Assembly (NCBI GenBank): GCA_025558095.1
Contig: JAIVFI010000001.1
Span: 386,501-450,500 of the forward strand
Reading direction: 5' to 3'
DNA: 64,000 bases
Source of the DNA: Hyaloraphidium curvatum
Taxonomy: Eukaryota; Monoblepharomycota; Hyaloraphidiomycetes; Hyaloraphidiales; Hyaloraphidiaceae
Shown here: positions 4,394 to 60,506 of the stretch, piece after piece
Layout of the letters: every line of letters begins with the position of its first letter
Numbering within the stretch: position 1 is the stretch's first letter
Program-made: the position numbers and the translations under genes
Notes under the pieces: model-generated
Seen by the model: only the letters and a program-made list of their open reading frames with translations
What the model was told of the DNA's origin: nothing
Databases searched by the model: none

Positions 4394-6670
4394 AGTATTG
4401 GTGACCCGGACCTGCCCCTGGCTTGGCCGCCGTTACACCATGAGTTTGCTGCTAATTGCAAATTTCATCGTCGTCGTGTGTCTTTTTCATTTTCCCAGTT
4501 TTCCTGTCCTTCATGGACTTTGAGATGAAGCTGGCAATGGAGTTGAGGGCCTTCTCCTTCTGCCGCCTCGCTTTGATCGTGGGCTCGAACTCCTTGATGC
4601 TAAGAGCCCAGAGCCAGGTCTCCATGTTCCACTCGCGGCCTAGTGCTTCCAATCTAGTCTGCAGCTTCTGGCGCCGCTCGGCATTTGCTGAACAGTGAAA
4701 CAGAAAGTGTTGTTCGTCTCCAATGTGCTCAGGGTCATGCTTGCACGTTCTCTGCTGCACCTCAAGTCCTTGGTGCCTGCCTGTCTCCACCTCCAGGTCG
4801 TGGGTAGAGCACAGCAACTTTTGGACATCCCTCCGGTGCTTCTCCACCCGGATCAGGGATGGTCCGATGTGGCCAAAGGTCATGTCACACATCCTCCAAA
4901 AGTGCAGTTTGTCGTTGTCCTTGAGCCTCTGGGCATTGATCTCCCTGAACTTGCCCTTCACAAGATTCTCCACAGTCTCCTTGGGCCATGAGAAAGTGTC
5001 CTTCTCCCACATCTCCCTCCCATCTTCGCCGCCATAGTATACAAGTAGTTCCCTCAGGAAGGCAGCCCAGTTCCAGGACCCCTTCAGTGCCTCGATCTTG
5101 AGCTCTTTGTAAAGTAGGTACAGCGCAGGATCCGCTGTTTTGATGCGCATGAGGAACTTGAGTGCCGACTCATGGTCATGAACTGCAAGGGGGTACTGGC
5201 CAGTGATCGCATACAGACAGGCCAGGGAGGTAGACTTGGGCAGATGAGTGACGGCACGAAGAGCCATGCATGTCACTTTGTCCCTGGTGCTTTCCCCGGG
5301 AAGGTACTCCTCCTTCGGCATCTCAACAATGAACGTGTTCCCATGTTGGCCCACCGCCTTGACCTTTGTGTTGTAGAGCTTGAGCTGGAGGTCAGGACTC
5401 ATCCCAGGCTGCTCCCTGATGTCACGGAGCCAGAGCCCATAAGCAGCGTTCATCTTGGCCTCTCTGCCATGCACATGGTCCTTGCTCCGGCCGGTTGAGG
5501 TCAGCTGATACCCCAGAAGCTTGAAGCTGTCAACCCTCTTCAGCTCCTGGTCCCTGTACATGAGCTTTACACGGTGAGGTATCCTCCTGGCCATCCACTC
5601 TGTCTTGCTGACGTTGATCTCCAGCCCATTGGCACTGGCATATGCAGACAGAAGATCCAGCTGCATCTTGGCATCCTTCACCGTCTTCGAGATCAAAGTG
5701 GTGTCGTCTGCAAAGAACAGAGCTAGCAAGCTGACCATCCTCTCCTGATCCTCTTCCTCCTCAGACACCATGCCCAGATCCATCCCTTTGGCACCATTGG
5801 CCTCCATGAAAGCAGTGATGTCGTTGATGAACAAGATGAAGAACAGCGATGAGAGAGGGTCCCCCTGCTTCACTCCGGTCAGGAACTTGATGAAGTCTGA
5901 CTTGGTCCCGTCTTCATCCCGGAGCCGTCCCCACACATGCCCGAACGCCATCTCGAACATGTCAACAACCTGTTTGGGTACACCCATCTCCTCCAGCTTC
6001 TGCCATAACCTGGGGCGCTCCACCGTGTCAAAAGCCTTTGTGAAATCTGCAAAGACCATGATCAGCTTCTCCTTGCGTGCCTTGGCCAGGGAGAAGAGTG
6101 CCTCGGCAAGGAACACTGCATGAAGGGTCGATCTCCGTGCACGGAATCCAAACTGCGAGCCTTCCAGCAGCTTGTTGCACTCAGCCCAGGGAACTAGCCG
6201 AGCGTTCCAGACCAGGGAGAAGACCTTCTCCAGCGTCCTCTCTATGCTGATGCCTCGGTAGTTGCCAGCCACGTTCTTGGGCCCCTTCTTGTGCAACATC
6301 ACCAGCAGTGTCTGGCCCCAGTCATCCATCTTGATGCCATTGAGCACGTCGTTGAGGAGGTTGACAACAGCTTGCTTCAGTACTGCAGTCCCGTACTTGA
6401 CGAACTCGAGCCAGATCCCATCCTCGTCCTTTGCCTTGCCGTTGGGGGCCTTCTTCAAGACCCTCTCCAGCTCCTTGAGGGTGATGGGGCGCAGCAGGTC
6501 TCCAGAAGGCGTGATCGTGGCCTTGGGAAGTGGTGGAAACGTGAGCCTTGGATCCTCCTCGATCTTGGTCACGTATTCGGCGCTGGCGACCATCTCCATG
6601 TGGCGCACCAGCTCTGCAAAGGGCACGGGGTTGCCCTTGCGCCTTGCGTGAGCCTTTCCAAGCAGCTGGA
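4394..6670 (-). mobile_element. 5'-truncated non-LTR (LINE) retrotransposon
   Basis: The minus strand carries a LINE reverse-transcriptase region followed by a short 3' UTR and an ATTCT-type tail (minus-strand end reads GGTCACCAATACTATTCT). The same 3' UTR recurs at 6671-6769 (plus), 6790-6980 (minus), 10112-10236 (plus) and about 17300-17402 (plus), showing a dispersed family. No apurinic endonuclease domain is seen upstream of the RT, so this copy is 5'-truncated. Its 5' side abuts an inverted copy of the 3' end. Confidence 0.85.
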
Positions 6671-6695
6671 CACACGACGACGATGAACTTTGCAA
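4452..6695 (-). CDS. LINE reverse transcriptase with C-terminal zinc knuckle
   Basis: Open frame of 747 codons; the first 9 or so residues come from the adjoining inverted element end, so the natural start is missing. RT motifs run in order: GNYRGISI (RT1 region), SQFGFRARRSTLHAVF, FADFTKAFDTVERPRLW (catalytic Asp), GVKQGDPLSSLFFILF, and LFFADDTTLI with the FADD catalytic pair. A Cys/His cluster follows near the C-terminus (CKHDPEHIGDEQHFLFHC), as in many LINE ORF2 proteins. The protein ends in a Lys-rich tail, KMKKTHDDDEICN. The frame has no internal stop, so the copy is fairly recent. The clade cannot be assigned by eye. Confidence 0.88.
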   Translation of the reverse strand: MQSSSSSCVQLLGKAHARRKGNPVPFAELVRHMEMVASAEYVTKIEEDPRLTFPPLPKATITPSGDLLRPITLKELERVLKKAPNGKAKDEDGIWLEFVKYGTAVLKQAVVNLLNDVLNGIKMDDWGQTLLVMLHKKGPKNVAGNYRGISIERTLEKVFSLVWNARLVPWAECNKLLEGSQFGFRARRSTLHAVFLAEALFSLAKARKEKLIMVFADFTKAFDTVERPRLWQKLEEMGVPKQVVDMFEMAFGHVWGRLRDEDGTKSDFIKFLTGVKQGDPLSSLFFILFINDITAFMEANGAKGMDLGMVSEEEEDQERMVSLLALFFADDTTLISKTVKDAKMQLDLLSAYASANGLEINVSKTEWMARRIPHRVKLMYRDQELKRVDSFKLLGYQLTSTGRSKDHVHGREAKMNAAYGLWLRDIREQPGMSPDLQLKLYNTKVKAVGQHGNTFIVEMPKEEYLPGESTRDKVTCMALRAVTHLPKSTSLACLYAITGQYPLAVHDHESALKFLMRIKTADPALYLLYKELKIEALKGSWNWAAFLRELLVYYGGEDGREMWEKDTFSWPKETVENLVKGKFREINAQRLKDNDKLHFWRMCDMTFGHIGPSLIRVEKHRRDVQKLLCSTHDLEVETGRHQGLEVQQRTCKHDPEHIGDEQHFLFHCSANAERRQKLQTRLEALGREWNMETWLWALSIKEFEPTIKARRQKEKALNSIASFISKSMKDRKTGKMKKTHDDDEICN

Positions 6696-10413: not shown

Positions 10414-10624
10414 TGTTATTGGGGACGGATGGATGTGTTTGGAGTCTCTGGATCGAGTTGGAGTTGATCTTGGCATTGGAGCTGGACTTGGATGGGCGGA
10501 TAGTTTCTGGCTAGCAATTACCTAGGGACGTGGCCTCTTAGAAGGGAATAACGCAACAAACACCAGGAACGCCACCTGCCTCATTCGCACCTGTCTCTGG
10601 GCGCCTGTGACCAGGGGTCTTTGA
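10414..10624 (+). repeat. Copia 5' LTR
   Basis: Begins TGTTATTGGGG and ends GGTCTTTGA. Its ends are set by identity with the 3' copy and by the GAATC duplication outside. The end is GA rather than the usual CA. Confidence 0.93.
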
Positions 10625-10645
10625 GATTAAGAGTCTCAACTGCTC
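10625..10645 (+). promoter_or_regulatory. Primer-binding site resembling tRNA-Lys(CUU) anticodon arm
   Basis: The sequence directly after the 5' LTR starts GATTAAGAGTCTCA. Its reverse complement, TGAGACTCTTAATC, equals the anticodon stem-loop of a typical tRNA-Lys(CUU), with anticodon CTT in the loop. There is no TGG, so the tRNA 3' CCA end is not used. This implies an internal half-tRNA primer ending near position 40, as in Drosophila copia and Ty5, which use initiator tRNA-Met. Extending the match into the D-stem needs a two-base bulge. Confidence 0.6.
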
Positions 10646-10686
10646 TGACACGTACCTGCTACCCCTGGAAGCCCGCCCGTGACAGG

Positions 10687-12725
10687 ATGACAGCCACCGA
10701 TGCCGACAAGCCCATCCTGCTCAACTCCGGTGAAAACATGGTCCAGTGGGACCGCAAGGCCCCCATCTACCTTAACAAGATTGGAGTGTACGAGTACGTC
10801 GTCAACGACGTCCTCAGCCTCGACTGGCAGCTCGAGCAAGCCCGCAAGAGAGCTGCTGAGCGGAGCACCGGTCCGGGGATGACCGACCAAGAGAAGGCAA
10901 CCATCCTTGCCGAGGAAGAGAAGACCGCGCGTACGATTCTTTCCGACTCCAAGTTTAGGGAGAAGGTCCAAAAGGCCTATGGCGAGCTCATGCTCATGCT
11001 CGACGACGTCCTCCAGGAGGCATTCGACGAGCCCAAGACGGCCCATGACCTCTGGAACGCGATTCACACCAAGTTCCGGGTCGGGAAAGCGCGTTTGGTA
11101 CACGCGTCCCAGATCCGCGTAAACAACTGGCAGTGGGATGCTTCAAAGACGGTGGACCAGAACTTCAACGAGTTGCTTAGTATCAAGTCAGAGAGGGCTG
11201 CGCACAAGAAGCCGCTCACAGACTACGAAGTGGCAATGATGGTGACGTTCTGCAAGGGTTTCCCGTTCGCAGAACTCCAGGGCTACTGGGGACGGGTGAT
11301 TGACGGTGCCAAGCACTTTGATGACAAGGGCAGCAGCAAGACGGATACATTTTCGTTCAACGGCATGCGTGATGCCGCTAACACAGCCCAAGCAAATGCA
11401 CCCCCGGCCGCGCCTGTCAAACTGACAGCTCCCGTTAATATCCCGGTACCTCCTGGATTCGGCCCCGGGTTCGCTGCGTATGGCACCGACTACCAGCAGC
11501 ACCAAGTTCCCCGTGGTGGTGGCAACCCCAGTCGGCCTCCGCAGCGCCCCTGGTACGAGCCCGGTCGCTACGCTCCGTACCCCAGCTACAGGCCGAGCGG
11601 CATGGCTCCTATACCAGGCCAGGGCCATGATACTCGGATGCGCGGCCGCGGGTTGGCACGTGGCGGCATGCGCGGAGGCCGCGGCTACTACCCCGCACTG
11701 AGGCCGATGGGCGGCCCAAGCTACCGCCCGGCTGGCGCTGCCGTTTGGAGGCCGGCTCCGGTGACCAGTGAGATCACCTGCCGCGAATGCGGCAAGCCGG
11801 GGCACGTGGCATCGGCGTGCCCCGACAAAAGGTGCCACAATTGCAACGGCAAGGGGCACGTACAGCGCGAGTGCCCGTCACCGCCCCAGCAGCCGTACGC
11901 CATGCTGGCAGATGCCCAGATGGAACACAGCGAGGGTGAGCATCGGGTGGTGATGTCTGGGCCGAGGTGCCCGCGCCGCGAAGGGGCCGCGGTGCTCGGC
12001 GCTTGGTTGAAGAGGAGGGCCGCGGGCCCCGCGTCGCGAAGGGCCGAGGTGCTAGACGCTTGAAGAAGGGGGCCGCGGGCCCCGCGTCGCGAAGGGCCGA
12101 GGTGCCAGACGCTTGAGAGGAGGGCCGCGGGCCCAGCGCCGCGAAGGGGCCGCGGGCCCGGCGCGTGGAGTGTGGGCCGCGGGCTCCGCGTCGCGAGGGG
12201 CCGAGGGCCAGACGCTTGAAGAAGAGGGCTGCGGGCCCAGCGCCGCGAAGGGGCCGCGGGCCCGGCGCGTGGAGTGTGGGGCGCGGGTTACTGGGGACCG
12301 ACGGTTGAGGTTCGCGCCCCTCGGCGCGTCGGCACGCGATCGGCTGATCGAACGTGCGTGCCGACGCGGGTGTAGCGCGCGCCCAACAGTCCAAACACTC
12401 TCGGAATTCCTCGCTTGACAAACACTAACTTCCGCCTCTCCTCTTTCGCTATCTAATTTCAATCTGCTTCGTACACTCTTCGTACACTCTCTGTTCATTT
12501 CGGTAAGGCGATACTGCTACCGAAGGTAACTCACCCGCTCCGCACCCAGCTCGCCCTTCATCGCAGCGTTGCCTGACAGCCTTCGGCTTCCTGGGATACG
12601 GCTCAATGCCCGGTGACAGTGAAGGAGCCGATTTCGGCTATGTCGGCTACGACCACGAGTCCGGCGGGGGAGCGACTTATGGCGAAGCTTTCGGAGCAAC
12701 CTACGGCGACGGCTTCGACAACTGA
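10687..12725 (+). CDS. gag: Copia Gag (two predicted exons)
   Basis: Capsid/nucleocapsid polyprotein. Translation starts MTATDADKPILLNSGENM. A UBN2-like capsid region (YGELMLMLDDVLQEAF ... LWNAIHTKFRVGKARLVHA) is followed by a Gly/Arg/Pro-rich stretch and two zinc knuckles, CRECGKPGHVASAC and CHNCNGKGHVQREC. Unspliced, the frame stops at 12061-12063 inside GC-rich repeats. A GTGAGC donor at 11936 and a TGACAG acceptor ending at 12579 define a 644-nt intron. Joining 10687-11935 to 12580-12725 gives 465 codons. It adds a Gly/Tyr-rich tail (FGYVGYDHESGGGATYG) that ends at TGA 12723-12725, in frame with pol. The splice is inferred from site quality, phase and coding look, not from transcripts. 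Confidence 0.75.
11936..12579 (+). other. Predicted intron in Copia gag holding GC-rich tandem repeats
   Basis: GTGAGC at the 5' end and CCTGACAG at the 3' end. From about 11965 to 12290 it contains roughly five imperfect units of about 55-65 bp built on GCCGCGGGCCC, CGCGAAGGGGCCG and AGACGCTTGAAGA. The sequence has little coding character, stops gag if unspliced, and is open on the minus strand only because of composition. Confidence 0.6.
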
Positions 12726-15700
12726 CTACGGAGCGGCGGGGAGGCCGCTGCGATCCCAGCCGTGACGGCCAATGCCGTTCCGGGGGAGGCTCTCGACGGC
12801 GGCATGGTTCAAGCTCAACATGCTCGGGCGTACATCAACCATGTCCGGGCAAACACCTGTGATTTCTTCTTCGATTCTGGCGCAAGTCGCATCTCTACGA
12901 ACATCCTCGACGACCTGGACAACGTTCGTTCGATACCCAAGTTCTCGGTGCATGGATTGACCGGACCTGTGGAGGTGTCAAAGGCCGGCACCATGTACAT
13001 TCGCCTCCGCGGTGACGGACCCATTGTTCGCCTTGATAACGTCCTCTTCATGCCAAGCACGCCTTGCCGCCTGTTCTCAGAAACGGCATTGGCCGCCGCC
13101 GGCGTTCGTTCAAAGAACCGCTACCTTGCTGACAAGCAGATGGAGAAGCAGCTGTACCTTGCGGACGGGACGGAGCTGTGCACTCTTTCGCAGCAAAACG
13201 GCGTGTTCCCGATGCCGATCGAGGTCGTCAAGCCGGGGTCAACGTCGCAGGCCATGTGGGGACTCACCGACGCGGATTTAATCCGACTGCGCGGGGTACG
13301 CATGTCACGTCTCTACGACCGTCACCTGTGGCATGCCCGGTGTGCGCACGCTCACATTGAGCGCATCCGGATAGCGCAGAGGTCGGGCGCAGTGCTTGGC
13401 CTTGAGAACGTCGATCTGGGCCCCGAGTCGGAGGTTATCGAGTGCGACGTCTGCCTGCGCGCCAAGCTGACGACTGCGCCGTTCCGCCCTTCGATGCGCG
13501 AGCACGTCAAGGACGTCATGGATCTCTGGCACGTCGATCTCAAGGGACCGGTTGACGTCACATCTGTTCATGGCCACCGCTACTGGATGGATGTCAAGGA
13601 CGAATGGAGCCAGCAGCTCTGGTCGATCCCGCTCGAGACCAAGGATCAAGCAGCGCCACTCCTTCAACAGCTCATTGTGTACGCAGAGACGCAGACGGGC
13701 AAGCGCCTCAAGCACCTCCAGTCTGACCAGGGCACTGAGCTCGGGCGGTGGGACGCAAGGGAGCTTGGCTGGTTCCAGACCTGGCTCCGCAAACGAGGCA
13801 CTCACTTCCGGGTCTCAATAGCCGATACGCCTCAACAGAATGCGGTACCCGAACGCGAGCATCGCTCGCAGGTCGAAGGGGTGCTTGCGCTCTGCATCCA
13901 GGCTGCCGTCGACAAGCGCTTCTGGAACTACGCTCTCGCATACAAGACTGAGGTCCGCAACATGCTTCCAACGGTGAAGACGATGCAACGGGGCGCCAAC
14001 GGAGCGGTCACCACGCCGCATGAGCTGTGGACAGGGACTAAACCCGACCTGTCACGTCTCCGCACGTTCGGGTCAGAGTGCTGGTATGGCATCCTCCCCA
14101 GCCAGCGCAAGGCTCTGGACGACCGTGCACACCGTGCAATCTTCCTCGGTTTCCCGAAGCACCTGAAGGCGTACACCTTGCTGGATCTGACCACAGGCAA
14201 GATTGTCCATGCGCGCTCAGTGGTCTTCAACGAGCGCTACTCTAAACGCTCGCCCGGCTCCTTCCACGAGATTGATGCGCTGGGAAGGCATCGTCCTTTT
14301 GCTCTCGTGCCTCCCCGGTTTCCTCCTTGGCTCTCCAAGCCGGTAGATGCAGCGCCCGATGAAGACAGCGATGACGATCAGCAGACACCACCAAGGGATG
14401 CGGGGACGGACATTCAGGAACCTGCTCAGCGCAACGAGGCCCCAGAGGCGTACGAGTGGGAGCTTCTCGAGGAGGAGATTGAGTATCCTGAGGCTGCGCA
14501 AGGGGAGGGAGCACACGGCAACGATGATGATGATGGGGTGCAATGGCATGCCGAGCACCCTTGGCCAGATGACGGTCTCCAGGACCCCCTTGCCATGCCT
14601 TCGACTGTCACCCCGTTGACATTCTCTCCTCCTTTCCGCTTCCCAGCCTTCGAGACGTGGCGCATACCAGGTACCAGCGCCCCGCACCCGGCGAGCCCAG
14701 TGACACTGCTGTCGGTGCACGATGTCACCGTTCCGCGCACATACAACGAATCGCAGAGATCACCGCATGCGGCTCAGTGGGAGGAAGCGCGGCAGGAGGA
14801 GAACAAGTCGATTCTTGAGATGGGTGTGGTCGAGGAGACGGAACTCCCTGCTGGTGACGAGGACAAGGTGGTGCCCTCGCACTACGTCTACGACGTCAAG
14901 AAGGACCAGAACAACAACGTTACGCGCTTCAAGGCACGCTTGGTGGCGGATGGAAACCGCCAATCCGAGCAAACATACTACGATACGTTCGCTGCCGTTC
15001 CTAACCAAGTCGTTTTCCGCCTCTTCCTTCTTCTTGTTGCCACGCTGGGACTCCTCTGTGATCACTGGGACATCAAGACGGCGTTTCTGCATGCTCCGCT
15101 GGACTACAGTGTCTACATCAGGCCGCCTCCGGGATGGCGGTTCCTCAAGGAGTCTTCCTCGCGCACGGTGCTTCGGCTGCTGAAGAGTCTCTATGGATTA
15201 CGGCAAGCGATGCGCTTGTTCCTTGCAATGCTTGATCATTTCCTTCGCCAGGCTGGATTCGTGAAGCTGGCCTCCGAAAGCTGTCTCTACGTGCGCTTCA
15301 CGGCCGGCCGCTTTATGATCGTCTTTGTCTACGTGGACGACTTACTGGTTGCTGCCACCTCACAGCTGGAGATCGATGAGTTGTTTGCCAGCCTCAAGCA
15401 GCATTTCAACATCAACTCCCTGGGCCCTGTCACTTACTGCTTGGGCGTGCACATCCGTCGCGACACCGGCACCGGTACAATCACGTTGTCGCAGACGGCG
15501 TACATCGACCGCGTCCTCCGCGAATTTGCATTCACGCGTGATGTTCCCAGCAAGGAGACAAAGTCTGCTCTCACGCCAATGCGACCGGATGCCCTCCAGG
15601 GGCTGCGCCCATTCGACCCCGCGGTGTTTGACAGCCTGCCAACGAAGATCCAAGACGACGTCAAAAGTTTCAACTACAAGGGCCTGATTGGCTCTCTACT

Positions 15701-16373
15701 TTGGATTGCCATCACAACGCGACCAGACATTGCTTTTGCGGTTATCTTTCTTTCTCGCTTTGCCAACAGCTTTGGGCCTCTTCACATCAAGGCGCTTCGC
15801 GATGTTTTGCGCTACCTGCGCCGCACCCGTACCTATGGACTTGTTCTTGGTCGTCGTCCTGCGTCTGGTGATCGCTTGGATCTCTGCGCATATGCGGATG
15901 CCGACTTTGCTGGTTGTGTGATGACCCGCAAGTCGACAACCGGTCTTGTCATCCTCATGGGTGCCTCCAGCATTGCCTGGCTGACCAAGAGGCAATCCGT
16001 GGTTGCACAGTCTACTACTGAAGCCGAGTATGTTGCTATGGCTCACGCAGTGCGCAACATCCTCTGGCTCCGCTCCATCTTGCAGGAACTTGGCCTTCCG
16101 CGGACCACACCGACCCGGCTCTTCGAGGACAACAAGTCTGCCGAGCAGCTGGCTCGCGACCCCAAGTTCCATGAGCGGACGAAGCACATCGACATCAAGT
16201 ATCATTTGGTTCGTGACACCGTGCAGGCTGGAGTCATTGAGCCTGCACGGGTTGTGTCTGAGGACAACTTTGGGGACGGCCTCACTAAGCCCCTGCCTCC
16301 GGCCCCTTTTGAACTCTTCCGTGAACGTGTTGGTGTTGTTGATCTGGATCCGGGTTCGGTTTCCAGTGCGTGA
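12726..16373 (+). CDS. pol: Copia Pol (protease, integrase, RT, RNase H)
   Basis: Uninterrupted 1215-codon frame directly after the gag TGA and in the same frame; the first in-frame ATG is 12804. Protease: FFFDSGASRIST with catalytic DSG. GAG-pre-integrase His/Cys: HLWHARCAHAH and CDVCLRAK. Integrase acidic triad: LWHVDLKGP, LQSDQGTELG and PEREHRSQ. RT: HYVYDVKKDQNNNVTRFKAR, HWDIKTAFLHAPLD, SLYGLRQAMR and the catalytic YVDDLL. RNase H: LCAYADADFAGC, STTEAEYVAM and TKHIDIKYHLVRD. All catalytic residues are present, so the element is likely capable of movement. Because pol has no good start of its own, it is probably made by readthrough of UGA-CUA. Confidence 0.95.
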   Translation, partial: LRSGGEAAAIPAVTANAVPGEALDGGMVQAQHARAYINHVRANTCDFFFDSGASRISTNILDDLDNVRSIPKFSVHGLTGPVEVSKAGTMYIRLRGDGPIVRLDNVLFMPSTPCRLFSETALAAAGVRSKNRYLADKQMEKQLYLADGTELCTLSQQNGVFPMPIEVVKPGSTSQAMWGLTDADLIRLRGVRMSRLYDRHLWHARCAHAHIERIRIAQRSGAVLGLENVDLGPESEVIECDVCLRAKLTTAPFRPSMREHVKDVMDLWHVDLKGPVDVTSVHGHRYWMDVKDEWSQQLWSIPLETKDQAAPLLQQLIVYAETQTGKRLKHLQSDQGTELGRWDARELGWFQTWLRKRGTHFRVSIADTPQQNAVPEREHRSQVEGVLALCIQAAVDKRFWNYALAYKTEVRNMLPTVKTMQRGANGAVTTPHELWTGTKPDLSRLRTFGSECWYGILPSQRKALDDRAHRAIFLGFPKHLKAYTLLDLTTGKIVHARSVVFNERYSKRSPGSFHEIDALGRHRPFALVPPRFPPWLSKPVDAAPDEDSDDDQQTPPRDAGTDIQEPAQRNEAPEAYEWELLEEEIEYPEAAQGEGAHGNDDDDGVQWHAEHPWPDDGLQDPLAMPSTVTPLTFSPPFRFPAFETWRIPGTSAPHPASPVTLLSVHDVTVPRTYNESQRSPHAAQWEEARQEENKSILEMGVVEETELPAGDEDKVVPSHYVYDVKKDQNNNVTRFKARLVADGNRQSEQTYYDTFAAVPNQVVFRLFLLLVATLGLLCDHWDIKTAFLHAPLDYSVYIRPPPGWRFLKESSSRTVLRLLKSLYGLRQAMRLFLAMLDHFLRQAGFVKLASESCLYVRFTAGRFMIVFVYVDDLLVAATSQLEIDELFASLKQHFNINSLGPVTYCLGVHIRRDTGTGTITLSQTAYIDRVLREFAFTRDVPSKETKSALTPMRPDALQGLRPFDPAVFDSLPTKIQDDVKSFNYKGLIGSLLWIAITTRPDIAFAVIFLSRFANSFGPLHIKALRDVLRYLRRTRTYGLVLGRRPASGDRLDLCAYADADFAGCVMTRKSTTGLVILMGASSIAWLTKRQSVVAQSTTEAEYVAMAHAVRNILWLRSILQELGLPRTTPTRLFEDNKSAEQLARDPKFHERTKHIDIKYHLVRDTVQAGVIEPARVVSEDNFGDGLTKPLPPAPFELFRERVGVVDLDPGSVSSA

Positions 16374-17462: not shown

Positions 17463-20024
17463 CTATTGCACCATGCGGTGGTCTAAGCTGTACAGGTAGC
17501 TCTTGAATGTCAGGTGCAGAGCAAGTTCAGATCCATCATCATCAGCCCCATTCGCCTTCTTCGGCCCGCCTTTTTTTGCAAGGGAATCAACCACATGTTC
17601 CGGTACACCTTGCCTGAAGCGCACTTTGTACTTCCCACTCTGTCCGAAGGAGCCTTCCAGGACTCCCTTGACACCTACAGCCCCGGAGAAATGAATCATC
17701 ACGGCAGAGGCTTCACAAAACGGCCCACAGAGAGGCTTACCGTTACTGGTCGTAACAAACATGCCAATGAAGGGTTGCAAGACCGTTTCTCTCTTGAATA
17801 GACCCTTTCCAATGACAGAGTATCCATCCACAACCTGGAGGAATGATCAGCACAGAACAGCAGCACAGCAAGCTGGATTCGTACCCGTTCAATTGCACCA
17901 GTCCGCTGCTTCCATTTGAAAACCTTCAACCTCGGGAGTTCCTGCATTCTGTAGTCTTTAGACGAGTAAACTTGAAGAAGGTGTCCGTGGAAAGCCAGAC
18001 GGCAGGTCTTGTCGGCTGTGGCCAGAGTCAATGACCATAGCATGCAAACCATTGCCACTGGGCCCACTGATGTCGGAGTCAAGTTTTGAGGCAATGTAGA
18101 GAGATCCTGGCAATGCCAGCACCGGAACCTCAAGCTCAACCAAAGCAAAGCAAGAATCCGCATCGGGAGATGCCAAGTACAGGTACTCGTTCAGAATATG
18201 GAAGCTCTGGGGCTCCAACGGCTGTTGCTCTGGGTCTGTGACAAATGAGTGAGTTGCGTGATAGATCCCCACCAGGTCGACGCAGCTCACCCTGTTTGGA
18301 TGGATCTTGACCAAAGAACGTCACTAATCCAAGGACTGTCTCGTGCCCAAGACTAAAATGAAACTTTGCCTTTGATGCAACTGGCCCCTTGAAGTACTTG
18401 ACCTTCTGCACACTGACAATGGCTGCGTGGATTGTTGTCACTGCTCCCACGGATGCAGCCAGCCCCTTTTCCATGACATCAGGGTCAAGCTGGCTGACAC
18501 AGAGGCCCACTCGGTCCCCCTGGCAGATAGTGACCTATCAGCACGGGGACAATTCACGCTGCTTGCCCCCCACCTGTGCTGCAACAGTGACGGGCTTGCG
18601 GAACATCTGCATCGACTTGATCTTCTTGGTAACCTTTGCAGAGGGCAGCTCGATGGTCTGAGGAGGAAAGTGAGACGAGCAAGCCCACGTCGGCGTGTCG
18701 ACACGTGCCTCTCCAACTGCTACCTTGCCCCGAAGGACAGTGCCCGTCCTGCACGTGGTCAGCTAAATGTGCAAAGGCCAGGAGACAACAAGCCTACATA
18801 ACCGTGCCTTGTCCCTTGATGGCAAAGCAGTGGTCCACAGCAAACACAAACGAGCCATCCGTTGTCCTTGCAGGCACCTTCAGTGCGTTGCTGATTGTCG
18901 AAATGAGCTGCTCTAGGCCTATGCTAGTGACGGTATCCGACGTATCCGACTCCGCGCCAACATTCGCGGCCTGCAACTGGGACATGAGCGAGCTAAACAA
19001 CCAGCCAGCATCTGAATGCCCACCACAGGTACGATTGGGCAGAAGGCAAACGGGGTGTCCGCAAGCGTCTTCCGGAGCTTTGCAACGACCTGAGCACAGC
19101 TCATTCTTCAACGATCCCGAACGGCAATGTCCGTCCCTTTCACCTTGGAGATCTTGACGTCTCGGTCGGCCTCCTCAAATATGTCAACCTTGTTCAGTGC
19201 AATGACAAGGTCCTTCCCCGTGATCTCGGCCAGCACCAGGGACTGGCACCAATCAGCGTTGCTGCGTGAACGTGGAAGAAAGGCCTCACCTCCGCTGTTT
19301 GCGTTTGAATGCCTAAAGGAAAGGTGGGTCAGAACTCGCCTTGGTGGACTACCAGTGCCCGTTCCCACCTTTTCCAGCGTCGATCACGAGCAGCATGAGA
19401 TCAATGATTTGCGATCCTAGGTGTCTGTTGAACCGGACAACCCACTCTGTAGCAGGAACAGCCTTACCTCCGATCACCGTTCGAACGAAAGCGGCATGTC
19501 CTGGGCAATCGACCAAGGTAACCTTGCACCGCAGCCCGTAAAGCCAGGAAACGGAATGGAGTGCCACAAACGATCACCTGCAGATCATCGATACCGGCAT
19601 CACGAAACACTGGTGGAGGGTCCAAGTAGAAGGCGGAGAATCCCAGGTCAAGCGTGATCCCGCGACGACGGGACTCTTCCGCCAGAATGAGCAACTACGT
19701 CATCTTGGACACGATGACGTTCCATTCCCACCGGGATGCTTGTCGAACGCAGCGGTCGACGCGACAGTGCTAAGCGCCCTTGCTGGCGACGCATTCAAAC
19801 TGTGCCCGCCTCGGCTGGACCACGTCCAACTAACCAAGACTCGTCTTCCCGCTGTCAACGTGTCCCATGATTCCGATCGAGACATTGAACGGAGGCTTGG
19901 ACCCTCCGCCCGAAGCTGGCGGCATCTCGACGACGGGTGGAGTGGGGGACGATTTTTGAGGCCCTTTTGAGACGCCGCTCCGTCGCGGGGGATCCCAGCT
20001 CGGCCCTCCACTTCTGACTTCCAT
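17463..20024 (-). CDS. EEFSEC: Selenocysteine-specific elongation factor (EEFSEC/eSelB)
   Basis: GTPase that delivers Sec-tRNA to ribosomes at recoded UGA codons, with SECIS-bound partners. It is multi-exon with introns of about 50-60 nt. G1 is GIMGHVDSGKTSL; splicing after TCTTG and before CAAGGGCG yields SLARALSTVASTAAFDKHP, a hallmark of EEFSEC. Then come ESRRRGITLDLGFSAF (switch I), VTLVDCPGHAAFVRTVIGG (G3), SQIIDLMLLVIDAGKG and LVIALNKVDIFEEAD (G4). Domain II has FVFAVDHCFAIKGQGTVM. Domain III has GLCVSQLDPDVMEKGL, HAAIVSVQKVKYFKGP and HFSLGHETVLG. The C-terminal domain IV has TCRLAFHGHLLQVY, YSVIGKGLFKRET, EGSFGQSGKYKVRF and finally LTFKSYLYSLDHRMVQ. All parts of the human protein have counterparts, and I see no disabling change. 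A 45-residue Pro/Gly-rich N-terminal extension precedes the G domain. Confidence 0.93.
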
Positions 20025-26561: not shown

Positions 26562-29500
26562 CTAATCGATTTTCAACACTTTCTTCAACTGTGTTTGGGG
26601 AGATGATTAGCACGTCGCGCTCGCCATGGACCGGAAAGCCGCGTACCTTGACGACTGTTGCCCATTCCTCCTTGGACAAGTCGTCCCGGAACGTGCTCTT
26701 CAGAACATCAATCGATTGCCGGGTAATATGGCTGACGATCGTGTCCTTCTCCGTGAAGTGCCTTGAGACGGCGGGAGTGCGTGAGCCCAGAGGTGACAGG
26801 ATCTTGGCCATCTCCTCACCTTCCCACAAACTTGGGCGTCTCGTACTGGGGACAGTCGATCTTGATGGCAACGGCCGGTTCACCTTTCTTGACCACCTCC
26901 TTGGCTTTGTGGTTGAGCTCGATGGATGTCACCTTGCCCAGCGGCACAATTCCCCTCTGCAGAATGCGAATCAGCGCTTGTGCCCACCACAGCGCGAGTT
27001 ACCCACGTCTGCCGTGACCGCCGCCAGCGGTGTTCCGAGTCGAAGCTGCCCCTCGGTCACGTCGACGCCGATGACGATGGGGTTCCTCTTGTTGAAGACC
27101 GCACCGGGCACTATCCGCAGCACCGCCGGGAACACGGCCTGGGGAGCCTGATCTTTGCGTTTCGCCTCGGTCATTTCCTGCGGAGAGAGGCATTAGACTT
27201 TGCGTCATTCGGCCTCCTTGAAGGCGTCTCACGTTCATGTACGCGGTGAACTGGTCGAAGAGCCTGTAGATGACGTCGGCCTGGAAGATCTTGACGCCCA
27301 CTTCCTCCGCCAAATCCTCCGCGTCCTTGTCGATCTTGACGTCGAACGCGAGGATCTGCGCGTACTCGCGTGCGCGCTCCAGCATGACGCTGGCCCGGAT
27401 GACGTCCTTCTTGTGGACGGGTCCGATGTTGATCCCGCTGACGGGGATCTTCGAGTCCTGCAGGAAGCTCAACAGGGCTTCCAAAGATCCCAGCGTCGAG
27501 GCCTGGACGCAGACGCCCTTGCCGCTCTTGTCCAGCGCACCCATGAGCCCAACAAGGTCCTGCTGCACTTCCTCCATCAGGTCCTCTTCGTCGTCGTCGG
27601 GACCGACAACGAGCAACCGCGACCCCGCAATGGCCTTGTCCAGGTCGTTGGCGGCGATCTTCACACCCAATGCCGCCTTGACCTGTTTGTGGTGCACGTA
27701 TGCAGACTTGACGCGGATCTCCCGCATCGGCTGAGGTGTCAGCAGGGCCCGGATGTTGGTGACGATCGGTCCATTGAGCCCGCAGACCACTATCCGGTCT
27801 CCCTCGTTCAGCACGCCGTTGGAAAGGATGACATCGATGGTCGTTCCGAAGCCCTCGACAACTTTAACCTCGAGCACCGTCGCCTCAAGCTTGGACAGGT
27901 ACATGAGCGACTTGGTCATGCGCTCTTGAGTGAGCTTCACGACCAGGTTGAGCAGGTCCGGGATGCCTTCGCCGGTCTGCGCCGACGTGGGCACAAGGGA
28001 AACGTTGCGCGCAAAGTTGGTGTTCTCGTAGTAGAGGACGGCGTTGAGGCCCTGCTCGGCAAACTGGGTGACGATCCGCTGGATCCGCGTTTCGAACTCC
28101 TGCATGACGTTGATGCCCTGGTCCTTGAGGGATTCGCGCACGCTGTTGTCGGGCGTGGACTTCCAGCCGTAGAGACGGTCGATCTTGTTGACCGCGACGA
28201 CGAAAGGCGTCTTGCCCCGCTTCAACAGGTTGAGCGATTCGATCGTCTGGGGCTCGAGTCCGTTGAAAATGTCCACGACGAGGATGGCGATGTTGCAAAG
28301 ACTCGAGCCTCGGGACCGGAGGTTGGTGAAGCTCTCGTGGCCAGGGGTATCGATGCCCAGGAGGCCGGGCACCTTGTACTCGTAGCCGTCCGTGCGGAGA
28401 TTCGCCGTCTTTGCCTTGATGGCATCGATCGGGAAGTAGGTCGCGCCGATCTGCTGCGTGATGCCGCCGGCCTCGCCCTCCTGCACGTTGGTCTGCCGGA
28501 TCTTGTCGAGGAGCTTTGTCTTTCCCGCATCGACGTGGCCCAGGACGACAAAGATCGGCGACCGCAGCTCCCGGTTCTCCTCCTCGGCCCGCGCGGCCGC
28601 CGCAGCGGCGGCCTTGGCCTCCGCAGCCGAGGTTTTAGCCACCTCCTGTGCCGGTGCGGATGGTTTCCCATCGACGGCGCCTGCAAAAGCAGCAAGCTTG
28701 ATCAGGTGCGTCGCGCCTCCTCGCTGCGACGGAACACCGACCTTTGGCAGGAGACTTTGCCTCTGGCGTCGTCTTCTCCTCCTCCTCGTCGTCCTCATCG
28801 TCCTCGTCGGACCCATCCTCGGCTTCGTTCACCGCCGTGCCCTCGCCCTGCTCCGACTCCTTCTCGTCCGCCGACTCGTCGTCCCAGCTGGCCTTGACCG
28901 GGGCGGATTCGGGCTCCGACTCCTCGTCCCAGCTCGCCTTGACGGGAGCTTCCTCCGCGGGAGCGGCTTCTGCGGCCGGCTCGGAAGAGGACGGCGCGGG
29001 CTTCTCCTCCGCGGCCTCGACCGGCGTCGCCTCCTCGGACGCCGGGGGCACGGGGCTCGATGCTGCGGGAGCCGCCTTGTCCTGGGGCTTGCGCCGGCGG
29101 TTGTCGTAGACCACCTTGGTCTTCTTCGGCTTTTCCGCCGCAGCCTCGGAGGAAGGCGAAACACCTTCTTCCCCTTCCGCGAGGGCAGCCACCTTGACAC
29201 CTGCGCGCGGCAAAGTAAGCGCCATACCGATTGACGCGGGCACGGACAACCCCACCTTGAAGCTGCAGCATCTGCTGGTTTCGGATCTGCTGCTTCTGCT
29301 GCGCTTCCTTTTGTGCCTTGGTCAGGTATTTGCCCTGCTTCTTGAGCTCCTCCTTCTTGGCCTGCGATGTGGATTGGGTGTCAGCACCCGCCTTTCATGG
29401 CGATCCTGCCAAGGGCACCTTTTCCTTCTCCTTCTTCAAGCGCTTGGCCTCCTGGATGCGCTTCTCCTCTTCCTCCCGCTGGCGCTCCTCCTCCTCGATC

Positions 29501-40279: not shown

Positions 40280-42530
40280 TCAAAGCTTCGCCTGCGGCTT
40301 GTGCACCAGGTCGATGATGGCCGGCACCACGCCCGGGTCCGAGAGCGTCGACAGGTCGCCCAGCTCGCCGATATCGTCCTGCGACTTCACGTCCCCGTCG
40401 GCGATCTTGCGCAGGATGCGGCGCATGATCTTGCCGGACCGCGTCTTGGGCAGGTCGGCGACGGCGTAAACCCGCTTCGGCGCGCTGAACGGCCCGAGGG
40501 TCTGCCGCACGTGGTCGATCATCTCCTTCTGCACCTCCTGCGGGGAGGTCCGCGCCGAGGTCTGCTTGGTCACGACGAAGGCAACCACCGCCTGGCCCTG
40601 CGATCGCACGCGGGTCAGCCGAGCGTCCCGCCGCCGAACCGGGCAAACCAACCGTGATCTCGTCCTTGATCCCCACCGACGCCGCCTCGGCGCACGCGGG
40701 GTGCTGCGCCAGCGCCGCCTCCACCTCCGAGGTGGAGATGCGGTGCCCCGAAACGTTCACGACGTCGTCCACCCGCCCGCGGATCCAGTAGTACCCGTCC
40801 TTGTCCCTCGCCGCGCCGTCGCCGGTGAAGTAGTATCCCGGGTAGGCCTTGAAGTACGTCTCGTGGTACCGCGGGTGGTTCTGGAGGACGGTGCGCGCGA
40901 TCGAGGGCCAGGCGCCCTTGTTGAGCTTGATCGCGAGGATGCCGGTGACGCCGTTGCCGCGAAGCTCCTTGCCCGTGGCCACGTCGAGGATGACGGGCTC
41001 GATGCCGAAGAAGGGGAGGGTACAGGAGCCGGGTTTCATGGCGTGCGCGCCGGGGAGGGGGGTGAGGAGGATGGAGCCGGATTCCGACTGCCAGCTGCGT
41101 GGGGGCGTTCAGCAAAGGCGCGTGCCGGGGCCGGGCGGGAACGCACTAGGTGTCAACGACGGAGCACTTCGAGTCCCCGCAGACCTCGAAGAACCATTTC
41201 CACGCCTCGGGGCTGATGGGCTCGCCGACGGAGCCGAGGATGCGCAGCGAGGTGCGGTCGTGCTTCCTGACGAAGCTGTCGCCGGCCTTTTGCAGCGTGC
41301 GGATCGCCGTCGGGGCGGTGTAGAGGTGCGTGAGGCGGTGCGTCTCGACGATCTGCCAGAAGCGGCCTGCATCCGGGAAGGTCGGAATGCCCTCGAACAT
41401 CAGCGTGGTCGCGCCCATGGCGAGGGGTCCGTAGACGAGGTACGAGTGGCCCGTGATCCACCCGACGTCGGCGGTGCAGCCAAAGATGTCGCCCTCGTGG
41501 AAGTCAAAGACGTACTTGAAGCTGACCATGGCCTGGAGGAGGTACCCTGCCGACCCGTGGATCAGGCCCTTGGCTGGACACCGCAGGTCATCAGACAACT
41601 CCAACGGACGGATTCCGGCGAAACCTACGTTTCCCGGTAGAGCCCGAGGTGTACATGTTGAAGAGGTGGTCCTCGGAACTGACAGGAACGGGGTCGCAGT
41701 ACGGCCTCTGGATGTCGACGGCATCGTGCCACCACACGTCCCGCGGCGCGTGCATCGGCGTGCCGAACGCCCCCGTGCGGCGCAGCACGACGCAGTGCTT
41801 CACGCCGGGGCACTCGAGCAGCGCCTGGTCCACGAGCCCCTTGAGCTTGATGCTCTTTCCGCCGCGGCGCGACTCGTCGACCGTGAAGACCACAGTGGAG
41901 CCCGAGTCGTTGATGCGGTCGCGGAGGGCGTCGGCGGAGAAGCCGGCAAAGACGACGCAGTGCACGAGGCCGAGGCGGGCGCAGGCGAGCATGGCGTAGG
42001 CGGCCTCGGGGACCTGATATCGGGAGGATCAGCGGGCGAAGAGCGAGCAAACGGGCAGAGGCGCACCATGGGCATGTAGATGGCGACGTAGTCGCCCTTC
42101 TTGAGGCCGTAGCCGGCGAGCAGGTTGGCGACCTGGCACACGTTGGCCAGCAGCTCGGCGTACGAGATGTACTTGTGCTCCCCGGGCTCGTCCGCCTCCC
42201 AGATGATTGCGGTCTTGTCCGGGTTGGCCAGGGCGTGGCGGTCGATGCAGTTGTAGGCCACGTTGAGGGTGCCGCCGTGGAACCAGCTGAAGTCGCCCCG
42301 CTCGTGGCCGCCGGCGGCGACGCTCCTGAACGGCGTGTCCCAGGTGATCATGTTGCGTGCCAGGTCGCCCCAGAAGCCCTCGGGGTCGGCCAGCGAGCGG
42401 GCGTGCATGTCCTTGTACTGCTCGACCGCGTAGATGTGCGGGCGCGGCGAGCGCTTCTGTGCCGGCGGCGGGATGACGGTGTCGAGGCCCGCGGGCGCTT
42501 GGGACATCTGGGAAGCGTCGATTTCCATCG
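40280..42530 (-). CDS. ACS: Acetyl-CoA synthetase (AMP-forming)
   Basis: Makes acetyl-CoA from acetate, ATP and CoA. Start [15 protein letters not shown]; no presequence or peroxisome signal (C-terminus PQAKL) is convincing, so it is probably cytosolic or nuclear. Landmarks: [37 protein letters not shown], the phosphate loop [14 protein letters not shown] (the intron after GSTGK restores it), [50 protein letters not shown] and the catalytic-lysine motif [17 protein letters not shown]. Introns of about 50-70 nt lie near 42016-42070, 41578-41640, 41096-41152 and 40600-40660. The stop is TGA at 40280-40282. It is divergent from the unknown gene at 42682. Confidence 0.95.
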
Positions 42531-42681
42531 TGCGGGCGGGGCGGGCTGCCGGCAGGAGGTGGAGAGGGCGGAGAGTCTGCGAGGAGTCGCCGTGACGGAG
42601 CGACGATCCGGCATGAGGTCACGGCTCCGTCGCGCTGAGGTAAGCAAACAAGGGGTTTCCTCGGTCGGGGTCCTTCGCCGT
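42531..42681. promoter_or_regulatory. Divergent ACS/unknown-gene promoter region
   Basis: About 150 bp between the start codons of acetyl-CoA synthetase and the plus-strand unknown gene. GC-rich, with GGTAAGCAAACAAGGGG near the right side. Confidence 0.35.
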
Positions 42682-58005: not shown

Positions 58006-58378
58006 CGGCGCGGTCGACGTCCTCGGCGGCGCGGGAATCGCGTCGCAAGGGGCGGAACAGGGGAAATCCGGGGGCAAAGACGCGGTAGGAGGGGCTTTTT
58101 CGGCGGGGACGAGGGCGGACGAGTTCGGGGCTCTCGAAGTGGCGTCGGCTCCCCGAAGCACAGCCTCACTCTCGGATGCTGCCCCGCTCCTAAAGCCAGC
58201 GCGCCAGCCTCAAGTTCGACAGACTTCACACAGCTGGTCTTGCGCTATCTGCGGCTCCCTCCATCCACTACGGCGCGTCGAGCTGGAACAGGGAGGACGA
58301 GGTCGGGTTCTGCAGGGATAACGTCGCGATCAAGATGTGATAACGAGGGAGGGTGACTAGAGCGGTGCCCCGTCTTCA

Positions 58379-59269
58379 ATGCTGTTTCTGGAATCCCTTT
58401 CCTCGCCGTCGGACCCAGTCAGTCACCGGGATGAGGGCGTCCGCGCGCTTGCCGAGGCGCTGAAGGACAACTCGGCGCTGAAGGCCCTGAACCTGTGCCA
58501 CAACGATTTCACGGAAGAGGGCGCCCGCGCGCTTGCCGAGGCGCTGAAGGGCAACTTGGCTCTGACGATCCTGAACCTGAGCGGCCTGGGCAGCTTCTGC
58601 ATCGGGGAAGAGGGCGCTCGCGCTCTCGCCGAGGCGGTGAAGGTCAACGCGACGCTCACGACCCTGGACCTGCGCAACACCTCCATCGAAGACGACGGCG
58701 CCCGCGCACTCGCCGAGGCGCTGAAAGGCAACTCGACGCTGGCAAGGCTGGACCTGGCCGATAACAAAGTCGGGAACGAGGGTGCTCGCGCGAACGGCGA
58801 GGCGCTGAGCGGAAATTCGGCGTTGGCGACGCTGGGGCTGCGCGACAACCGCACCGGAGACGAGGGTGCCTGCGCGCTCGCCGAGGCTCTGAGGAGGAAC
58901 TCGACGCTGACGACCCTGGAGCTGAGCGGCAACCGCATCGGCGACGAGGGCGCTGGCGCGCTCCTTTCCGCGCTCGAGTTCAACCCGTCCCTGACGAAGC
59001 TCGTCGTGAAGCTTCCAGACGATGAATTCAATCAAATCTCCAGCCCCCTTCGCAGGGCGATCGAGAAGGCGGTCAACGATCCGGGAAGGAAGGAGCGGGC
59101 GCTGCAGAAGCGGCGGGAGCTCGAGGCGGAGCGCACCTCGGCCGCCGAGCGCGCGCGGGCAGCCGAACGAGCGCGGGAGGCCGAGCGGGCGCGGGAAGCG
59201 GAGCGGGCGCGGGAAGCGGAGCGGCAGCGTGCAGCAGAGGCCGGGCGGCGGAGGATCGAAGCCCAATAG
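58379..59269 (+). CDS. RNI-type leucine-rich repeat and coiled-coil protein, N-terminal part of a kinase locus
   Basis: From ATG 58379 (MLFLESLSSPSDPVSHRDEG) there are seven or so 28-residue repeats of the ribonuclease-inhibitor/NLR type, each with GARALAEALKGNSTLxxLDL. One repeat is longer (LNLSGLGSFCIGEEGARALA). A heptad region follows, with tandem AERAREAERAREAE units. The frame ends at TAG 59267-59269 (EAQ-stop), but the same frame continues at once as QAARQRQREAGEAEARRRQQ and LARRMEQLRLGEQELERKRV, clearly the same coiled coil. The TAG replaces what looks like a CAG (Gln) codon. The neighbouring kinase region completes an LRR/coiled-coil/kinase architecture. Confidence 0.7.
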   Translation: MLFLESLSSPSDPVSHRDEGVRALAEALKDNSALKALNLCHNDFTEEGARALAEALKGNLALTILNLSGLGSFCIGEEGARALAEAVKVNATLTTLDLRNTSIEDDGARALAEALKGNSTLARLDLADNKVGNEGARANGEALSGNSALATLGLRDNRTGDEGACALAEALRRNSTLTTLELSGNRIGDEGAGALLSALEFNPSLTKLVVKLPDDEFNQISSPLRRAIEKAVNDPGRKERALQKRRELEAERTSAAERARAAERAREAERAREAERAREAERQRAAEAGRRRIEAQ

Positions 59270-59479
59270 CAGGCCGCGCGGCAACGGCAGCGCGAAGCCG
59301 GCGAGGCAGAAGCCCGTAGGAGGCAGCAGATCGAGGATGACGCCCGGGCACGGCGGGAGCAGGAGGCGGAGCTGGCCCGTCGGATGGAACAACTGCGTCT
59401 GGGCGAGCAGGAACTGGAGCGCAAGAGGGTCGAGGTCGAGGAGATGGCCAAGCAGAAGACGAGATTCGCGGGCGACATC

Positions 59480-60506
59480 GGACATCACTTCGATCCCCGG
59501 CAAAGCAGCACCGGCGACCAAGACCCCGCACATACACCGCAGCTCCAACGAGATCCTCCCCAGCGACCTGCAAGAGGGAGCTCGCCTCGGCGCAGGCTCC
59601 TTTGGCGAAGTTTTTGAGGGGTTGTACCAGCGGCACACGCGGGACGCAATGAAGCTCGTCAAGATCGACGGGTCTCCGAAATCTCTTGAGCGGAAGAGGG
59701 CTGAGTTCGAGCAGGAGATGGCAGTCTGGGCCGCGATACCGTACCACGACAATGGTAAGCTGCATTGCGAGTAGGTGTCGCTCCTGCTGCTTCCTCACGT
59801 CGAACATGCAGTGCAACCTCTCATTGGATGGTGCAAGGAGCCGTTCTGCATGGTCACTCGCTTAATGGCCAATGGCACGGCCCGCGACTACCTCGCCAAG
59901 AAGGGCTGGCACCGCCCCGCTATCCTCGCCGTGCTCTTTGGCGTTGCACGCGGCATGAACCACCTCCATTCCCGGCCGACCCCAATCCTGCACTCGGACC
60001 TCAAGGGCGCTAACGTGCTCGTGGACGAGAACGGGACTGCCAAGGTGGCCGACTTCGGGCTGAGCAAGATCCGCCACGGGTCGACGGCCGGGCACACCAA
60101 CTTCGTCGGGGGGAACTCTGGTATACATGGCTCCGGAAGGCAGGTGGTGTCGGTGCCCCGGTACAACATCGCTGACAAATCCGTTACTGCAGTGTGGGCC
60201 AACCGTCGCGGCCGCGCCTCGGACGTGTACGCCTTCGGCATGATGATGTGGGAGTTCTGGTCCAAGGGCGACATGCCGCTGGAGGACGAGATGGAGGAAG
60301 AGGGCATCATGCTGCTGCATCTCGGGGAGTTGATCAAGAAGGACCCCGACTTCCGGCCAAAGCGCCCGGATCTGTGCCCCGACCAGGTATGGAGCTTGAT
60401 GCAGTGGTGCTGGGCGTTCGATCCTGCCGCGAGGCCTAACTTTGGGGAGGTCGCGGACGCGCTTAAGGTCATCATCGACCGCACGGACGTGGTGTTCATC
60501 AAGTAG
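59480..60506 (+). CDS. TKL-type protein kinase domain, C-terminal part of the LRR locus
   Basis: Serine/threonine (tyrosine-kinase-like) kinase. Gly-loop: RLGAGSFGEVFEGLY. Lysine: DAMKLVKIDG. A 57-nt intron (about 59756-59811) joins AAIPYHDN to VQPLIGWCKEPFCMVTRLMA. The catalytic loop is ILHSDLKGANVLVDENG (HSD instead of HRD) and VADFGLSKI is the DFG motif. The activation segment is damaged: VYMAPEG at 60121-60140 is out of frame with the sequence before it. Splicing from GTATAC 60121 to CAG 60192 keeps the frame to RRGRASDVYAFGMMMWEFWS but deletes the APE motif. The C-lobe ends DALKVIIDRTDVVFIK. The upstream frame differs from the LRR/coiled-coil frame, changing somewhere in 59464-59500. Confidence 0.72.

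Follow-up and report, generated by a model that had tools for sequence, protein, structure and literature searches.

A 64,000-nucleotide stretch of DNA (the window, in what follows) carries what appears to be a complete gene for the eukaryotic selenocysteine (Sec) elongation factor, eEFSec (EEFSEC), in what an earlier note on the sequence took to be a probable fungal genome. The question raised by this locus is whether the gene belongs to a working Sec pathway inherited by a fungus, or is instead a contaminant, a late arrival by transfer or the relic of a lost system. Fungi were assumed to lack selenoproteins until nine early-diverging Sec-using species were reported in 2019 (PMC7988114, PMC10386755 and PMC11378755). 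The species include Gonapodya prolifera, Bifiguratus adelaidae and Harpellales such as Zancudomyces, Smittium, Furculomyces and Capniomyces (PMC7988114), with the Harpellales accounting for seven of the nine (PMC10386755). The feature common to such fungi is the possession of Sec machinery and selenoproteins outside Dikarya.

The eEFSec gene and its fungal setting

The gene occupies positions 17463–20024 of the window on the minus strand, with its start codon ATG at 20024–20022 and its stop TAG at 17465–17463, which confirms to the base the limits originally proposed for it. Splicing was done by hand at GT-AG sites, with junctions picked to preserve frame and homology, and gave 15 exons and an open reading frame of 610 aa free of internal stops; all 14 introns are GT-AG and each is 45–56 nt long. 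Exon 1 (19835–20024) encodes an N-terminal extension and the P-loop GHVDSGKT, exon 2 (19732–19782) ARALSTVASTAAFDKHP, exon 3 (19578–19675) RGITLDLGFSAF with the Sec-pocket residue Phe93, and exon 4 (19468–19522) VTLVDCPGHAAFVRTVIGG with the G3 motif. These are followed by exon 5 (19369–19416), a 23 nt microexon 6 (19290–19312), exon 7 (19144–19242, with the G4 motif NKVD), exon 8 (19024–19089), exon 9 (18798–18970, Sec-pocket Asp256 and His257), exon 10 (18703–18748) and exon 11 (18574–18657). Exon 12 (18291–18519) begins GDRVGLC and contributes Sec-pocket Arg314, and after exons 13 (18068–18235) and 14 (17885–18015) the last exon (17463–17834) encodes domain IV and the C-terminus, SYLYSLDHRMVQ-stop.

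In a phmmer search of the PDB the top match was human eEFSec (E 4e-148); archaeal SelB reached only 1e-52 and the best EF-Tu 3e-32. The human match scores 400 bits over the GTPase domains and 92 bits over domain IV, the latter within residues 417–610, which align with the C-terminal part of the human factor; judged on sequence, this likeness far exceeds chance, and it bears out the original view that the gene is intact through domain IV. The core is EF-Tu-like (GHVDSGKT at residues 54–61, DCPGH at 118–122, NKVD at 172–175), and the three motifs quoted when the gene was first described lie at residues 62–80, 86–96 and 599–610. Residues F93, D256, H257 and R314 align with Phe53, Asp229, His230 and Arg285, which line the Sec pocket of the human protein (PMC5059743). 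The top NCBIfam model was selB, with a score under its bacterial cut-off, as expected since the factor is eukaryotic. Human EEFSEC (PDB 5IZK, 7ZJW) shares the domain order D1–D4, the GTPase motifs, the F/D/H/R pocket and the C-terminal RMVQ, but the present protein has an N-terminal extension of about 40 residues and a shorter insert after the GITLDLGFSAF motif, and its gene is broken by 14 very short introns.

Other features of the window include a Copia-type retrotransposon that has reading frames for both gag and pol (10552–16370, plus strand), 1 kb from the eEFSec gene, and a non-LTR-type reverse transcriptase reading frame (RVT_1; 4455–6695, minus strand). At 58361–60503 (plus strand) a leucine-rich repeat protein and, after it, a TKL-type kinase are encoded, possibly by a single gene.

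The host can be placed from markers both within and beyond the window. On the contig that carries eEFSec, two genes resemble fungal proteins most: eIF5B (27002–28828, minus strand), which scores 698 bits against fungal PDB chains and about 560 against mammalian ones, and the N-terminal exon of an acetyl-CoA synthetase (41803–42618, minus strand), whose top PDB matches are likewise fungal. The only EF1A found, on contig C25, carries the opisthokont insert PWFKGWKKEGKAGEVTGKTLLQAID, lacks the animal insert, has the fungal rather than the animal CKWSEER form and scores 874 bits against yeast compared to 860 against mammals. An eEF3 at C42:159316 has the HEAT-4HB-ABC architecture and matches yeast eEF3 best; every fungus has this factor, which outside the fungi is confined to lineages that possess EFL (PMC11378755). 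By the affinities of these four markers the eEFSec contig and the rest of the assembly are fungal, as had been suspected.

These markers bear directly on whether the contig, or the Sec genes at large, could stem from a contaminant, a selenoprotein-bearing eukaryote outside the fungi such as an alga, an animal or another protist. The third-position GC of eEFSec, at 0.60, is lower than in most long ORFs nearby, and a gene somewhat unlike its neighbours might be read in this way, and the gene may differ from them in age or expression. However, the fungal EF1A, the eEF3 and the two fungal-like genes on the eEFSec contig itself all argue for a fungal source, and the Sec genes are spread over at least eight large contigs (C1, C2, C8, C14, C15, C31, C41 and C43) out of 55, so that contamination is very unlikely and already largely refuted.

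Sec machinery across the assembly

The searches for machinery and selenoproteins covered the whole assembly (31.9 Mb in 55 contigs, 63% GC). A tRNA-Sec with a long variable arm lies at C14:445030–445115, scoring 78.2 bits where the cut-off is 47, and ARAGORN reads its anticodon as tca (UCA); SepSecS lies at C8:364279–366000 and exceeds its family cut-off. The candidate for PSTK, near position 720164 of C2, is weaker: it scores under the TIGR03575 cut-off, but its best solved match is an archaeal PSTK (E 2e-7) and PSTK is its only meaningful solved match. Finally, a gene near position 198350 of C31 has an L7Ae region matching SBP2 with E 2e-17, compared to 0.06 for the next L7Ae protein. The earlier note had predicted tRNA-Sec and SBP2 and had called for searches for the two Sec-synthesis enzymes, and among these only PSTK was recovered with a qualified result.

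The SBP2 gene departs from its known counterparts. It shares with SECISBP2 (PDB 7ZJW chain B) a basic linker and the L7Ae SECIS-binding domain, but here a single exon runs from the C-terminal half of that domain into ankyrin repeats (L038:1655–2796; Pfam Ank_2, E 4.6e-18). A literature search that took in papers other than the main 2019 report returned no description of such a fusion.

Two further SelD-like matches on C31 proved to be thiamine-phosphate kinase (ThiL) rather than SPS and were set aside. They are near-identical intronless genes 12.5 kb apart (C31:90101–90757 and 77548–78204), both over the TIGR01379 cut-off, and one of them adjoins a THI5-like reading frame. Since ThiL usually occurs in bacteria, the pair may have been acquired by horizontal transfer.

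Selenoprotein genes and their SECIS elements

Selenoproteins had been predicted elsewhere in the genome, and three genes with an in-frame UGA at the expected Sec position were recovered. The first is SPS2 (SEPHS2), itself among the predictions, at C2:990953–991939 and over the selD cut-off; its TGA, at C2:991907–991909, stands in the context WAELKG-U-GCKVQQADLYRLL (in a second rendering, WAELKG-U-GCKVQQADLYRLLEAL), which is the canonical SPS2 Sec position. A GAF-domain gene resembling cyclic-nucleotide phosphodiesterases by eye (L002:2100–3474) adjoins it. The second is a SelenoW on C43 (Pfam Rdx) with the Sec context VHTVYCGA-U-GYGRRY, read as MSSSSKVTVHTVYCGA-U-G, an intron and then YGRRYSAFERELKAEFG. 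The third, on C15, encodes a glutaredoxin-thioredoxin reductase fusion (TGR) ending VSG-TGC-TGA-GGA-TAA, so that its predicted tail, GCUG, is that of animal Sec reductases. Among solved structures flatworm TGR matches it best (E 5e-196), and the fusion shares with the flatworm and mammal enzymes (PDB 2X8C and others) the glutaredoxin-domain CPYC, the reductase core TCVNVGC and the C-terminal GCUG; it differs from them in occurring in a fungus. All three appear secure as selenoprotein genes. To our knowledge, fungi use a small bacterial-type thioredoxin reductase.

A second SelenoW-like gene, on C41 (L077; C41:19447–19488 and upstream), is 48% identical to the C43 gene over 75 residues and has its TGA and its intron at the same positions. 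It carries GVKU rather than CxxU, its Pfam score falls slightly under the cut-off and an alternative splice choice could bypass the TGA; we therefore regard it as only a probable fourth Sec gene. Five glutathione peroxidase loci were also checked as selenoproteins; four of them have Cys at the active site, and in the reading frames of the remaining copy, on C19 (L018, C19:163083–163217), the usual active-site Cys was not found.

Each of the four genes is followed, 24–141 nt past its stop codon (54, 57, 141 and about 24 nt), by a canonical eukaryotic SECIS of one architecture: ATGA and AAA separated by 12 nt, with a helix behind them that closes on TGA. The element of the C41 gene, the nearest to its stop, is a strong one. 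SECIS elements elsewhere in the genome had been anticipated when the locus was first described. As the Rfam SECIS family made no calls on the selenoprotein loci, detection relied on a motif-plus-helix scan, the strict form of which demanded ATGA/AA with a helix of at least eight pairs. No other instance of this strict form was seen in about 280 kb of sequence from other loci, with both strands counted, and it is absent from both strands of the window. When each 200-nt flank was shuffled by dinucleotides, 0–3 of 2000 shuffles scored as high, a figure which is biased in the case of C41 as that element came from the scan itself. A genome pattern scan seeded with the SECIS motifs returned 30 matches compared to 13 in a backward control, and the best-folding of these was the element at the C41 gene; three other matches (L071, L068 and L051) were rejected for want of a Sec-like upstream reading frame. 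Folding energy alone is unremarkable in such GC-rich sequence, and with Rfam silent the evidence for these elements is therefore their motif architecture and position. MAFFT did not align them in register.

The in-frame UGAs and the elements behind them can be read directly from the DNA, while expression of these genes and actual insertion of Sec are what we would expect from them. The contrary reading, in which the genes remain as a relic, decoding has been lost and the UGAs now act as stops, could draw on the glutathione peroxidases, since every recovered copy with a readable active site uses Cys. However, all recovered parts of the machinery appear intact, and the UGAs stand at catalytic positions with conserved coding sequence and canonical SECIS elements behind them, both of which would decay fast if unused. 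We consider a relic the least probable of the alternatives weighed here, and a minimal one.

Origin of the pathway and its implications

We conclude that this is, with high probability, a functional eEFSec in an early-diverging, non-Dikarya fungus, which has retained by vertical descent the whole Sec pathway (tRNA-Sec, a candidate PSTK, SepSecS, SPS2, SBP2 and eEFSec) and uses it for at least SPS2, SelenoW and Sec-TGR, and probably for the second SelenoW-like protein. The earlier note had made its reading depend on the presence of tRNA-Sec and selenoproteins in the assembly and on a fungal origin for the contig; each was looked for, and each was found. If the system resembles that of animals, SPS2 would supply the selenophosphate with which PSTK and SepSecS produce Sec-tRNA, and eEFSec-GTP would carry the Sec-tRNA[Ser]Sec; SBP2 bound to the 3' UTR SECIS would recruit eEFSec via domain IV, and a specific in-frame UGA of each selenoprotein mRNA would be decoded as Sec. 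Outside SECIS-bearing mRNAs UGA stays a stop. The suggestion that UGA may be recoded in this host thus holds for SECIS-bearing genes, but most annotation is unaffected.

Vertical inheritance is the part of this conclusion that depends on weighing a different history, namely that the trait is no ancestral remnant but reached this fungus from another eukaryote by horizontal transfer. Sec is scattered among fungi, and the best solved matches of the TGR are flatworm and animal enzymes, as might be expected after such a gain. Against this, transfer would have had to bring in at least six unlinked machinery genes and several selenoproteins, now on different contigs, and eEFSec has 14 introns; the abstract of Mariotti 2019 reportedly also infers that the fungal Sec trait descended vertically. 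Horizontal gain is therefore very improbable, if a shade less so than contamination or a relic, and we favour retention by descent.

Since Sec-using fungi were reported in 2019, the trait itself was already known among early-diverging lineages and the present genome is a further member of that group. Less expected are the canonical SECIS elements, the Sec-containing TGR and the sharing of one exon between the SBP2 L7Ae domain and ankyrin repeats. The first of these sets the genome apart from the fungi of Mariotti 2019, whose selenoproteins, according to its abstract, reportedly mostly lack consensus SECIS elements, whereas all four genes found here carry one; a literature search for fungal SECIS among papers other than that report returned nothing. 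It is slightly less likely than not, but a serious prospect, that an animal-like system, with canonical SECIS elements, a Sec-containing glutaredoxin-thioredoxin reductase fusion and paired SelenoW genes, has persisted in a fungal lineage outside the nine known Sec users, and that this lineage has modified its decoder through an SBP2–ankyrin fusion, by which SECIS recognition might be anchored to the ribosome or to some partner in a manner not seen elsewhere.

That the parts of the machinery occur alongside canonical SECIS elements in one fungal genome, assembled into few contigs, supports ancestral presence of the Sec trait in fungi with repeated loss. The genome also provides a clean case for the annotation of genes with UGA-encoded Sec, which gene finders truncate, and with the SBP2–ankyrin fusion and the Sec-TGR, changes of the Sec system in fungi become directly testable.
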